Source: Egibacter rhizosphaerae | GTDB lineage: Bacteria > Actinomycetota > Nitriliruptoria > Euzebyales > Egibacteraceae | Assembly: GCF_004322855.1 (NCBI RefSeq) | Contig: NZ_CP036402.1 | Location: 558,001-622,000, forward strand | Reading direction: 5' to 3' | DNA: 64,000 nucleotides | Part shown: positions 44,147-54,710 of the stretch, one piece after another | How positions within the stretch are numbered: the stretch's first letter is position 1 | How the letters are laid out: each line of letters opens with the position of its first letter | Position numbers and translations under genes: made by a program | The notes under the pieces: generated by a model | Database searches by the model: none | The model's input: the letters and a program-made list of their open reading frames with translations, nothing else | Told to the model about the DNA's origin: nothing

Positions 44147-44785
44147 TTAGCCGGGCCCGGTACGGCGGTCGATGCCGAGTGTGGCGATGAGGTCTTCGTG
44201 GAGTTCGAACCAGACGCGGTGGCAGGAGTCGATGTCGGTGCGGTCGACCCAGGCGGGCTCGCCGGTTTGGGCACGCGTTAGCGCGGTGGTGAACCGCTTG
44301 TCGTAGCCGCGGAAACGTGTGAGCCGGTTGCCGAGTCGGTCGATGAGCGGGCGAAGCGCACGGTCGATGGTGGTGAGTTCCCGAAGGATGTTGGCGTCCC
44401 AGGCGGGGTCGGTGTGGTCGTTGGGAACGAGTCGGTCGCCGGGGGCGGGTTTGAGTTGCCAGTCGGTACAGGCTCGCAGCACCACGGCGTTCAAGGGCAG
44501 GAACTCGCGGTAGACGTGTCGGACGTCATCTGCGCCGCGGGTGCTGGTGAGCTCTGATGCGAGTTGGCGCTCGCTCTCGGCGCGGCCGCGTTCGGTAAGG
44601 GACCATCCTGCGGTGTCGCCAAAGGCGGTGTAGGTCGTCCAGCCGTGTGCTTCGGCGTCGCGCAGGAGCTCTTGCGTCTCGTCTTCGTCGAGGTCGAACC
44701 GGCGGGCGACCGTCGCGGTGTCGGCGAACCCGGTGATGCGGACGGCGTGCAGGACCAGCAGGTCGGGCGGGGAGTTGTGGCTCAC
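44147..44785 (-). CDS. Winged-helix transcriptional regulator-like protein next to PEP-synthase-like gene
   Basis: This 212-residue protein has a DNA-binding-type N-terminus (residues about 8–75: LLVLHAVRITGFADTATVAR then SLTERGRAESERQLASEL, a wing) and a C-terminal alpha-helical domain of unknown role with DRLVPNDHTDPAWDANILRE and LRPLIDRLGNRLTRFRGYD. I do not know a named family for the second half. Its GTG overlaps the preceding HTH gene's stop (GTGA), so the two are co-translated, and both are divergent from the PEP-synthase-like gene. Confidence 0.6.
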   Translation of the reverse strand: MSHNSPPDLLVLHAVRITGFADTATVARRFDLDEDETQELLRDAEAHGWTTYTAFGDTAGWSLTERGRAESERQLASELTSTRGADDVRHVYREFLPLNAVVLRACTDWQLKPAPGDRLVPNDHTDPAWDANILRELTTIDRALRPLIDRLGNRLTRFRGYDKRFTTALTRAQTGEPAWVDRTDIDSCHRVWFELHEDLIATLGIDRRTGPG

Positions 44786-45165
44786 GAGCCGGCGTCGTGT
44801 CGTGCCGTCAGTCGGGTGTAGTGCTGTTGGCAGGCCTGCGGGGACTTGAACCCCATCGCCTGCGCGATCTGGGTCCAGGTCAGTCCTGCGCTGCGGGCGG
44901 TGAACAGCAGGCCGGCTTCGAGCCCCTCGACCTCAGCGCGGGCCGCCGGCAGCAGAGTGAGCGCAGCCAGGAGGTCATCGGGGTCGAGCTCGGTGGAGCG
45001 CCAGAGGGCGAACTGTGCGAGGTCGACCGCCGATGGCGGGACCGGAGCCGGCCGCCACGGGCGGGGCGCGATCGCGTCGGCAGCCAGTTCCGTCAGGCGT
45101 GTTTGGGCACGCCACTCTCGCTCGGCTTGGGCGTGGTCTGTGTGACCGTGTGGATCGCGGGGCAT
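44782..45165 (-). CDS. Small helix-turn-helix DNA-binding protein
   Basis: This 127-residue protein has a C-terminal helix-turn-helix with the spelling AGLTWTQIAQAMGFKSPQAC followed by QQHYTRL, typical of small actinobacterial regulators. The N-terminal part is helical and charged. Start ATG 45165; a GTG at 45171 is possible. Only 36 bases separate it from the divergent phosphotransferase gene, so the inverted repeat at 45179–45215 can control both, and this protein is the likely ligand. Confidence 0.7.
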   Translation of the reverse strand: MPRDPHGHTDHAQAEREWRAQTRLTELAADAIAPRPWRPAPVPPSAVDLAQFALWRSTELDPDDLLAALTLLPAARAEVEGLEAGLLFTARSAGLTWTQIAQAMGFKSPQACQQHYTRLTARHDAGS

Positions 45166-45178
45166 GGACACATGGTCC

Positions 45179-45215
45179 GTCTTCAACGTATTGTTGTCAA
45201 CATGACGTTGAAGAC
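45179..45215. promoter_or_regulatory. Large inverted repeat spanning the divergent promoter and start codon
   Basis: Perfect 11-base arms GTCTTCAACGT and ACGTTGAAGAC flank 15 bases that contain an inner GTTG-T-CAAC palindrome. The right arm begins one base after the ATG of the phosphotransferase gene, so bound protein would block transcription or leaderless translation. The left arm lies 14 bases from the HTH gene's start. Confidence 0.65.
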
Positions 45216-46476
45216 AAACGAGTTGTTCGTGCCACTTGCGGAGGCGACCGGCGAGACCTGCGGCGGCAAAGCGGGAGTGCTCGGCGTGTTGCTGCGGGCG
45301 GGCCTGGCGGTGCCCGACGGGTTCGTCGTGCCATTCGCCGTGCACGACGCCGCTGTCCGCGACCTCGCACCGCACACCAGCCACCGGCATGGGCTCGGGA
45401 CGCTACGCGCAGCGGTCGAGAGCCGACCGTTGCCCTTTGCCGTGGTCAAGGCGCTGGAGCGCGCACTCGAAGGGCTCGGGAACCAGCCTGTGGCGGTTCG
45501 ATCGTCCGCTGCGAACGAGGACACCAGCGAAGCGTCGGCGGCAGGCCAGTACGACAGCGTCCTGGCGGTCTGCGGCGTCGCCGACGTTGCGGCAGCCGTT
45601 CGGACCTGCTGGGCCTCGCTGCACTCCCCACGCGCAACCGCTTATCGAACCCGCTTTGGTGAGGACGGGTCCGGGAGCGAGGACCCGGCCATCGCCGTCA
45701 TCGTCCAGCGCCACCTCGACGCCGAGGTGTCAGGGGTCATGTTCACGCCCGCCGGCCAGGACGAGCCGACCGCGATCGAAGCCTCCTGGGGACTGGGGCC
45801 AAGCGTCGCGGCCGGCACGGTCACACCCGACACGTATCACGTCCACCCCGACGGGACGGTGACCTGCGTGGTAGCGGACAAGCCGACCCGGCTCGACCGG
45901 GTCGGAACCCAGCTCGCCACTCGAGCCGTGCCTCGCGAGAGCCGCCAACGCTCGACCCTCGACGAAGCCACCGCGACCACACTCGCGACTCTGGGCAGCA
46001 ACGTCGCCGCCACCCTGGGCGCTGCCCAAGACATCGAATGGTCCATCGCCGACAACCGCCTCTGGCTCTTGCAGGCGCGACCGATCACCGCCGCGCCACC
46101 CGCGCCACCACCATCCAGCGCGCCCTCCGGCCCCGTCACGCTGAGCGGCACACCCGCCAGCCGGGGAACGGCCACCGGCACCGCCAGAACCGTGCAGGGT
46201 CCGCAAGACTTCGGGCGCATACGACCCGGCGACATCCTCATCTGCCCCTACACCGACCCGGCATGGACGCCGCTGCTGCGCATCGCCGCCGGCGTGGTCA
46301 CCGAGGCGGGAGGCGCACTCTCCCACGCCGCGATCGTCGCCCGCGAGCACCAGATCCCCGCCGTCCTCGGCATCCCGGGGGCGACGACGATCACCGACGG
46401 CAGCGTCGTCACCATCGACGGCACCGCCGGCACCGTGACCACGACGCATGCCGGACCGACCCCACCAACCCGATAG
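45202..46476 (+). CDS. Compact PEP-synthase-like phosphotransferase (ATP-binding plus phosphohistidine domain)
   Basis: This 424-residue protein contains a PPDK/PEP-synthase ATP-grasp region (GGKAGVLGVLLRAGLAVPDG; VAVRSSAANEDTSEASAAGQ; SGVMFTP; EASWGLGPSVAAGTVTPDTY), a proline-rich linker (about residues 298–312), and the swivelling phosphohistidine domain (GGALSHAAIVAREHQIPAV, His375). Neither a PEP/pyruvate TIM barrel nor the large drug-binding domain of rifampin phosphotransferase is present. It could phosphorylate a small acceptor or another protein by way of His375. It overlaps its own operator, and a phosphatase gene follows 52 nt later. Confidence 0.8.
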   Translation: MTLKTNELFVPLAEATGETCGGKAGVLGVLLRAGLAVPDGFVVPFAVHDAAVRDLAPHTSHRHGLGTLRAAVESRPLPFAVVKALERALEGLGNQPVAVRSSAANEDTSEASAAGQYDSVLAVCGVADVAAAVRTCWASLHSPRATAYRTRFGEDGSGSEDPAIAVIVQRHLDAEVSGVMFTPAGQDEPTAIEASWGLGPSVAAGTVTPDTYHVHPDGTVTCVVADKPTRLDRVGTQLATRAVPRESRQRSTLDEATATTLATLGSNVAATLGAAQDIEWSIADNRLWLLQARPITAAPPAPPPSSAPSGPVTLSGTPASRGTATGTARTVQGPQDFGRIRPGDILICPYTDPAWTPLLRIAAGVVTEAGGALSHAAIVAREHQIPAVLGIPGATTITDGSVVTIDGTAGTVTTTHAGPTPPTR

Positions 46477-46528
46477 CCCGACAGGAGGAGGACAGCGGAT
46501 CCGCACGGATGCGCTGCCGCATCGCCCC

Positions 46529-47143
46529 ATGGTCACTCGACACCTCCACCTCGCTCGCCACGGCGCCGCTGACGCCTTCGGCGAGCTCACCGAGACCGGC
46601 TACCAGCAGGCACAGCTGCTCGGCCAACGGCTCGCGAACGCGCCGATCGACGTGGTCTGGCACTCCCCACTGCCACGCGCCGCCGACACCGCCCAGGAGA
46701 TCGCCAGGCAGCTTGCGAGCGTGCCAGTGATCGAGGCGCCCGAGCTCACCGACCACGTCCCCTACGTGCCGCCGGCCAACGAAACGCCCCCGTCCTGGAT
46801 CGGGTTCTTCGACGGCTACGACGAAGCCGAAGCCGCAGCCGGACAGCACATCGCCGAAACCCTCGTGGCCCGCTTCGGCGGCATCGCCTCCGCTACGACT
46901 ACTAGGGCGCCCACCGACACCCACGAGGTCCTGATCACCCACTCCTACCCCATCGCCTGGCTGATCCGCCACGCACTCGACGCGCCACCAGCCCGCTGGC
47001 TAGGACTCGACGGCGCCAACGCGGCCCTGACCCTCATCGAACACCGCACCGGCCTCCCACCAGCAGTCGTGATGCTCAACGAGATGAGCCACCTCCCAAC
47101 CGACCTGCGCTGGACCGGATTCCCCGCAACGGCCAGGCCATGA
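46529..47143 (+). CDS. Histidine phosphatase family protein
   Basis: This 204-residue member of the phosphoglycerate-mutase-like superfamily has the catalytic LARHGAAD motif near residue 10, SPLPRAADTAQEIA, and the second histidine in LITHSYPIAWL near residue 145. It may remove phosphate from metabolites or proteins. It follows the PEP-synthase-like gene closely on the same strand, suggesting opposing kinase and phosphatase roles. ATG 46529 is the first in-frame start; a strong AGGAGGAGGA lies 40 bases upstream, so the true start may be unusual. Confidence 0.78.
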   Translation: MVTRHLHLARHGAADAFGELTETGYQQAQLLGQRLANAPIDVVWHSPLPRAADTAQEIARQLASVPVIEAPELTDHVPYVPPANETPPSWIGFFDGYDEAEAAAGQHIAETLVARFGGIASATTTRAPTDTHEVLITHSYPIAWLIRHALDAPPARWLGLDGANAALTLIEHRTGLPPAVVMLNEMSHLPTDLRWTGFPATARP

Positions 47144-49170: not shown

Positions 49171-49401
49171 CGAGCGCAGAAGACGAGCCGACCTCCTCTG
49201 ACAGCCACCGCGACTGCGGACCAATCGTCCCGGCCAATGCCTCTGGGCTCGGACTATGCCGGGAATGCCCGCGCTCGCCTCAGGCTGGTCGCAGCTGCGA
49301 CCTGCGCTCGGAGGGCTGCCTGCTCGTCGCCACTCCGCCAACGCAGCCCGTCGGGCCAGGCCGCCCACGCGGCGGCCTCATCGAGCAGCAGCCGGTAGTT
49401 G
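49171..49401 (-). other. Unassigned stretch after tRNA-Ile with a short coding-like frame
   Basis: Downstream of the tRNA on the minus strand a frame without a clear start (about 49401 to 49255) reads LLLDEAAAWAAWPDGLRW and ends FPA-stop. Codon usage looks protein-like, but I do not recognise a family. It may be the tail of a lost gene at the tRNA's 3' side, next to the RelE remnant. Confidence 0.3.
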
Positions 49402-49474
49402 TGGGCCCGGCGGGGATCGAACCCGCGACCAAGCGGTTATGAGCCGCCTGCTCTGACCACTGAGCTACGGGCCC
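49402..49474 (-). tRNA. tRNA-Ile2 (CAT anticodon, lysidine type) or tRNA-Met
   Basis: A 73-nt cloverleaf is present with acceptor GGGCCCG/CGGGCCC, discriminator A and no encoded CCA. Anticodon loop CTCATAA gives CAT. The stem ends in a G·T pair (GGCGG/CCGCT), and AGAGCAGGCG plus CGCTTGGTCGC closely follow bacterial ileX, so the C34-lysidine isoleucine tRNA is favoured over elongator methionine. Confidence 0.85.
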
Positions 49475-54506: not shown

Positions 54507-54579
54507 TCCGGGGTAGCTCAGTTGGCAGAGCGCTCGCCTGTTAAGCGAGATGTCGCCGGTTCGAGCCCGGCCCCCGGAG
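54507..54579 (+). tRNA. tRNA-Asn (GTT)
   Basis: A 73-nt cloverleaf is present: acceptor TCCGGGG pairs with CCCCGGA, D-arm GCTC/GAGC, anticodon stem CTCGC/GCGAG with loop CTGTTAA (anticodon GTT), T-arm GCCGG-TTCGAGC-CCGGC, discriminator G. CCA is not encoded. Confidence 0.95.
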
Positions 54580-54710
54580 CCGGGAAGCGCCCCGCCCGAG
54601 CCCCTCGGGCGGGGCGTGGTGCGTTCCGGGGCGGGCGCGGACCGCCCCCGTCGTGTGAGACTACGCGCAACGGGATACGAACCCGGTACGGCAACCAGGG
54701 AGGAGCCGCG

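Follow-up and report, generated by a model that had tools for sequence, protein, structure and literature searches.

Introduction

Among the systems closest to the one considered here is VadK (Rv1127c), a virulence kinase of Mycobacterium tuberculosis described not long ago, a compact protein made of an ATP-grasp part and a histidine part, which autophosphorylates at His422 (PMC13400623). Its co-expressed operonic neighbour, Rv1126c, has been reported to solubilise VadK, the pair being separated by a 2 M NaCl wash, and VadK co-precipitates PrpC and PrpD (PMC13400623). Two-component dikinases also exist; in HpeHI, for example, H and I suffice in vitro (PMC12167813). Here, we describe a four-gene module of Egibacter rhizosphaerae, located at 44147-47143 of a stretch of 64,000 nucleotides (contig NZ_CP036402.1, positions 558,001 to 622,000; hereafter the window). 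The module comprises a protein with an ATP-grasp domain and a phosphohistidine swivel (PPS), a histidine phosphatase (HPP), a winged-helix protein (WH), and a helix-turn-helix protein (HTH). It is real and conserved, and it belongs to the compact dikinase theme, with a private operator and a WH partner. A preliminary description of this DNA had already noticed the four genes; three points go beyond it, namely that WH is a general partner of compact dikinases, that VadK shares the minimal layout and the kind of neighbour, and that the palindrome between the two units is an operator dedicated to them. Tentatively, and with a probability a little short of even, we read the module as a self-contained and self-regulated phosphohistidine relay driven by ATP, in which WH would supply the missing acceptor part, HPP would reset the cycle, and HTH would control expression.

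Organization of the locus

The PPS-HPP unit is divergent from the HTH-WH unit. The features are as follows, in coordinates of the window.

44147-44785, minus strand: WH, 212 aa, winged-helix N-terminal half and four-helix C-terminal domain; proposed partner or acceptor subunit of the dikinase.
44782-45165, minus strand: HTH, 127 aa, Myb/SANT-like (GLTWTQIAQAMGFKSPQACQQHYTRL); proposed repressor or regulator of both promoters.
45184-45210, no strand assigned: operator CAACGTATTGTTGTCAACATGACGTTG, that is [CAAC-N5-GTTG]-T-[CAAC-N5-GTTG], 27 bp, inside a larger inverted repeat (45161-45233).
45202-46476, plus strand: PPS, 424 aa, compact dikinase with ATP-grasp (PPDK_N), linker, and histidine swivel.
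46324-46326, plus strand: codon of His375, predicted from the alignment of homologues to be the phospho-acceptor of the swivel domain.
46529-47143, plus strand: HPP, 204 aa, branch 1 of the histidine-phosphatase superfamily, with RHG...TH motifs; proposed phosphatase resetting the relay.

The 3' end of HTH shares 4 nt with the start of WH, and the spacer between HTH and PPS (45166-45201) measures 36 bases as annotated. The start of PPS is probably the TTG at 45223 rather than the annotated ATG at 45202, because the first residue of homologues corresponds to residue 8 of the 424-aa reading, where a homologue of the same family has a Shine-Dalgarno-like GAGGA, and because the ATG falls within the operator. 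With this start, the spacer would be about 57 bases. The preliminary picture of two DNA-binding proteins divergent across a 36-base promoter has been kept for HTH and for the annotated distance, whereas the longer spacer is likelier and the role of WH as a DNA-binding regulator is doubtful.

A compact dikinase without an acceptor domain

In PPS, Pfam recognises a PPDK_N domain at residues 19-298 (E 7e-58) and a PEP-utilizers domain, the histidine swivel, at residues 341-410 (E 3e-25). No third domain was found by Pfam in the 424 residues, and the AlphaFold2 model consists of the same two domains, connected by a disordered, proline-rich linker at 297-310. The swivel histidine is His375, in the motif GGALSH375AAIVARE; it is invariant in 19 PPS homologues and aligns with the catalytic histidine of rifampin phosphotransferase (RPH) and of phosphoenolpyruvate (PEP) synthase. 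Across these homologues, the motifs VRSSAA..ED, TDPAWTPL, and GG.LSHAAIVARE are invariant or nearly so. The protein had been described beforehand as a phosphohistidine protein lacking an acceptor domain, with His375 as its key histidine, and both statements hold. A PPS at another locus (L083:6004-7740) carries an acidic low-complexity repeat insertion of about 150 aa between residues 51 and 77.

The nearest fold relatives of PPS are RPH, PEP synthase, and HpeI, with RPH as the best match (5hv3, E 1e-26). As had been pointed out, RPH shares the two end domains and has an extra drug-binding domain; this rifampin (RIF)-binding domain is absent from PPS according to Pfam, NCBIfam, and the AlphaFold2 model. 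The fold match, together with 245 bits against the NCBIfam model RIF_Ptrans_rph, might suggest an antibiotic-inactivating kinase related to RPH and acting alone, but this is highly improbable, given that the cut-off of that model is 999 bits, that the drug-binding domain is missing, and that the PEP synthase and PigC models score PPS as high (248 bits with PEP_synth, cut-off 740). Of the substrates first proposed, an antibiotic, a metabolite, or a protein partner, the last may be right; the antibiotic is disfavoured by the missing domain, by the private operator, and by the lack of conserved resistance genes. Hardly credible at all is a degenerate PEP synthase or PPDK remnant. The domains of PPS do derive from the PEP-synthase lineage, but the catalytic residues are intact and the protein is widely conserved under a private operator. 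The remnant is further contradicted by the active-site motifs kept in the 19 homologues; no PEP-binding or barrel fragment lies nearby, and the domain search found no C-terminal PEP/pyruvate-binding barrel in PPS. The split of the HpeHI type, with ATP-grasp alone on one protein and swivel plus RIF-like domain on the other, is not seen either, PPS holding ATP-grasp and swivel on one chain.

Regarding VadK, PPS scores 83 bits with PRK05878, the model of the VadK or compact PPDK family (cut-off 456), and a vadK orthologue (L142) scores 922. With the PEP synthase and PPDK models, PPS obtains 248 and 35 bits, and the vadK orthologue 107 and 450, respectively. PPS and VadK-type kinases form two well-separated clades (100% in the Shimodaira-Hasegawa-like approximate likelihood-ratio test, SH-aLRT). 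To judge by the sequences, PPS stems from the PEP-synthase/RPH side and VadK from PPDK, which points to two separate reductions to ATP-grasp plus swivel. In the genome of the window, the PF00391 matches apart from PPS are two enzyme-I-type proteins of the phosphotransferase system (PTS), at C1:2895147 and C1:3129478 (L002 and L003), one of them with regions resembling HPr and DhaM; this search showed neither PEP synthase nor PPDK in full length.

The phosphatase downstream of PPS had been recognised correctly. HPP matches His_Phos_1 (PF00300; E 9e-24, 84.6 bits, cut-off 21.7) and conserves the RHG motif, which places it in branch 1 of the superfamily; its nearest sequences in the PDB are those of PGAM5. 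The phosphohistidine phosphatase SixA belongs to the same superfamily (PMC7948535). HPP follows PPS in the window and in L004, L042, L085, L128, and L185. A copy about 60% identical adjoins a VadK-type kinase and WH in L132 and L133; HPP is therefore found with both kinase types.

Conservation of the module and its operator

The four-gene order, which had been proposed for a search in other genomes, is also present in G010 (same family), Nonomuraea indica (L004), N. gerenzanensis (L042), and G573 (L128), an actinomycete genome of the Mycobacteriales sample. The order is not due to chance, since it is kept in other actinomycete orders at 55-70% identity. In the Kribbella family, 17 of 38 genomes have HTH and WH divergent from PPS, and HPP is missing from the neighbourhood. 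A close relative was found in two of the 66 genomes of the window's own class, a third match (G030, 842-aa frame) being a longer protein, and in two of the 397 genomes of the phylum sample; the module is thus patchy. The flanks of the module differ. In most genomes of the Kribbella family, the site is the same, with rph/rdgB-like genes on one side and a von Willebrand-type gene on the other (gene names read from the sequences), and none of these flanks recurs in the window or the Nonomuraea loci. No conserved pathway, catabolic, or resistance genes stand beside the PPS module among the loci compared. A further arrangement occurs at L135:7596-9720, where HTH, PPS, and WH are co-directional and form an operon, and no operator is recognisable.

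The operator has the general form [CAAC-N5-GTTG-T]x2-3, with two or three units in relatives, and occupies the equivalent position in G010, Nonomuraea, G573, and Kribbella-type loci. A pattern search returned one exact match in the 4.64-Mb genome, where about 7e-5 would be expected. HTH matches Myb_DNA-bind_6 (Pfam, E 9e-5), its DNA-binding segment being conserved in 15 homologues. Rearranged loci are informative: the operator, present once per genome, is doubled where the two units have come apart. In G496 (L185, C1:34000-53500), HTH-WH lies at 35 kb and PPS-HPP at 47 kb, 12 kb apart, and the whole genome has two operator sites, one in front of each pair. At L068:7478-9900, HTH and PPS are kept apart by an inserted sortase-like gene, with an operator on either side of it. 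L131 retains the operator with HTH-WH and no adjacent PPS. Because the operator tracks HTH and is absent where WH stands without HTH (L129 and L134), HTH is the likely binder, and WH is a doubtful DNA-binding regulator. The exceptions are L127 and L135, which have HTH and no recognisable operator. The four genes likely form a closed private regulon of HTH in the genomes examined. No RNA element was found at the promoter in an Rfam scan of the window, whose sole matches were two tRNAs, tRNA-Met (49401-49474, minus strand) and tRNA-Asn (54507-54581, plus strand).

The winged-helix protein as partner of compact dikinases

The AlphaFold2 model of WH (predicted local distance difference test 95.7, predicted template modelling score 0.90) shows a winged helix-turn-helix (wHTH; residues about 7-81) followed by four helices (85-203). 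In Foldseek searches, the wHTH half alone resembles MarR/DtxR-type regulators and has the wHTH fold; the whole protein has no PDB match at E<=1e-3, and for the C-terminal domain the PDB offers nothing convincing and no functional hint. No NCBIfam model matches the WH family, and the only matches in Pfam and PADLOC are weak wHTH models. A role in anti-phage defence was considered and rejected, the weak PADLOC matches (MkoB 20 bits, PRTase_III-A 17 bits) reflecting generic winged-helix similarity. In an alignment of 37 homologues (A2), F95, N99, W109, Q110, A168, S187, H189, W192, and H196 are invariant in all rows, and N122, H124, D126, and D130 are present in all or nearly all rows containing the segment. 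The conserved polar residues cluster in the C-terminal domain and not in the wHTH, a residue pattern that points to a binding or catalytic site rather than a scaffold.

These data bear on the simplest view of WH, that of a plain MarR-type repressor that regulates the kinase gene jointly with HTH and has no part in catalysis. Its wHTH half, its co-transcription with HTH, and its annotation as MarR family in records agree with this view. It is nevertheless quite unlikely, for conservation falls on the C-terminal domain, loci with WH and no HTH have no operator, WH is found fused to enzymes, and the regulator position is already filled by HTH or by a TetR-like protein. In fact, the regulator beside WH varies, being HTH or, as read from the sequences of L132, L133, and L137, TetR-like, while WH is constant.

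The pairing of WH with dikinases has been found well beyond the module. Among the Mycobacteriales, 26 genomes contributed 28 WH loci, and in 22 of these a dikinase gene of the PEP-synthase or PPDK/VadK type adjoins WH; in a further Mycobacteriales locus (L130), PPS lies 12 kb from WH with its own operator. Four loci (L136, L139, L141, and L142) differ from the published vadK primers by 2-6 mismatches, and the sequence surrounding the histidine of their kinases reads GGA(A/S)SHAAVVSREL; in all of them WH directly adjoins the kinase. A search of 298 genomes of the M. tuberculosis genus with the published vadK quantitative PCR primer did not find M. tuberculosis itself. In each of the nine plasmid records inspected, a relative of WH is part of a dikinase locus or adjoins one, standing next to VadK-type kinases, between HpeH-like and VadK-type proteins, or fused. 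For example, one protein of Rhodococcus opacus B4 plasmid pROB02 (L091:4192-6573) has a swivel (PF00391) at its N-terminus and a WH at its C-terminus, with a long region in between; another, of a Rhodococcus LW-XY12 plasmid (L090:4426-6597), joins an AMP-binding enzyme to WH and is followed by a VadK-type kinase. For the preliminary description, homologues consistently next to, or fused with, a known PEP-synthase part would have spoken against its reading; the constant neighbour was WH instead. The WH tree follows the kinase type, with the WH proteins of the PPS clade in one group and those of VadK-type loci in another. One WH partner family is common to both lineages of compact dikinases. A literature search brought up no paper on the pairing of WH with dikinases. 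Two other arrangements were observed, a tyrosine-phosphatase gene after the swivel-WH fusion of L091, and a 140-aa swivel-only protein, with its histidine retained, that overlaps the WH gene at L134:7510-8611 without an adjoining ATP-grasp gene.

Proposed mechanism and alternatives

By homology with the domains and motifs of VadK, RPH, and PEP synthase, PPS would bind ATP and phosphorylate its own His375. The swivel may then dock on the four-helix domain of WH and pass the phosphate in trans, the candidate receivers being H124, H189, and H196, or a ligand held by these residues. WH is proposed as the acceptor or acceptor site because of its constant pairing with dikinases, its fusions, the co-solubilisation of its putative mycobacterial counterpart, and its invariant residues. 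HPP would strip the phosphate or product and reset the cycle. HTH would bind the CAAC-N5-GTTG repeats, which are seen in the sequence, and control both transcription units; more speculatively, WH may convey the state of phosphorylation to HTH and so close the loop. The phosphate may end up on WH, on a small molecule, or on another enzyme.

A related possibility, if a somewhat doubtful one, is a small-molecule kinase with a split substrate site, in which the four-helix domain of WH would bind a metabolite or drug and PPS would phosphorylate it, as in HpeHI, CreHI, or phenylphosphate synthase. Two-component dikinases have precedent (PMC12167813), plasmid WH genes cluster with AMP-binding enzymes, alcohol and acyl-CoA dehydrogenases, and HpeH-like proteins, and the invariant N, H, D, W, and Q set of WH resembles an active site. 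But the PPS module conserves no catabolic or resistance genes, the Kribbella-family flanks differ from those of the window and Nonomuraea, and HpeHI needs only H and I in vitro (PMC12167813). Alternatively, PPS might be a regulatory kinase like VadK, which after self-phosphorylation would bind or modify a distant metabolic enzyme, with WH as chaperone or tether. The autophosphorylation of VadK, its co-precipitation of PrpC and PrpD, and the aid of Rv1126c to its solubility are in keeping with this idea (PMC13400623). It is unlikely, since PPS falls outside the VadK family, a pure chaperone has no obvious need of three invariant histidines and of the N, D, W, and Q residues, and the fusions of WH to other enzymes favour an active role.

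Several points weigh against the ATP-driven relay that we prefer. The authors of the VadK study propose methylcitrate synthase, and not Rv1126c, as the target (PMC13400623), and the identity of Rv1126c with WH, though strongly suggested, is judged from the position of WH genes beside vadK orthologues. HPP is not present at the Kribbella-family loci, and HTH and WH occur in G513 and G571, two genomes in which no compact PPS was found. WH also accompanies dikinases having their own acceptor-like domain (HpeH-like, L093 and L094), so that it is not only a replacement. Finally, the phosphotransfer from PPS to WH, or a substrate bound to WH, is something we infer.

A broader proposal, and a doubtful one, is that WH acts as the acceptor in a widespread system of signalling or modification, to which compact dikinases of both the VadK and the PEP-synthase type contribute the donor half. 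The four helices of WH would then form a phosphohistidine domain, or one in which a ligand is phosphorylated. If true, this system would parallel two-component and PTS relays but be driven by ATP, and the half that VadK lacks would be Rv1126c. The prediction is that proteins of the Rv1126c type are the acceptor or an essential partner of VadK. As a model from a non-pathogen, the module of the window would be clean, having one private operator and its own phosphatase and no further pathway genes.

Comparison with known systems

Like VadK, PPS consists of ATP-grasp and histidine swivel only, has lost the acceptor domain, and has a WH-type neighbour, as judged for VadK by position in orthologous loci. 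VadK autophosphorylates its swivel histidine, and the same activity is predicted for PPS from the equivalent, invariant His375. Unlike VadK, PPS is accompanied by a dedicated operator, by HTH, and usually by a phosphatase, and its origin is in the PEP-synthase/RPH lineage, versus PPDK (PRK05878) for VadK; the VadK paper does not discuss WH as a family (PMC13400623). With RPH, PPS shares the ATP-grasp and a swivel with intact catalytic histidine, together with the motifs VRSSA and TDPAWTPL...SHAA, whereas the large RIF-binding domain between the end domains and the solo action belong to RPH. As in HpeHI, CreHI, and PpsAB, the dikinase parts would be split between proteins, and some relatives of those systems share a locus with WH; the division differs, since ATP-grasp is there on one chain and swivel plus acceptor on the other, whereas PPS joins ATP-grasp and swivel and has no acceptor. 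The resemblance extends to PTS-Ntr with SixA, also a phosphohistidine relay in which a protein of the histidine-phosphatase superfamily acts on a phosphocarrier. In PTS-Ntr, the donor is PEP through EI and the carrier is NPr, whereas the donor of PPS would be ATP.

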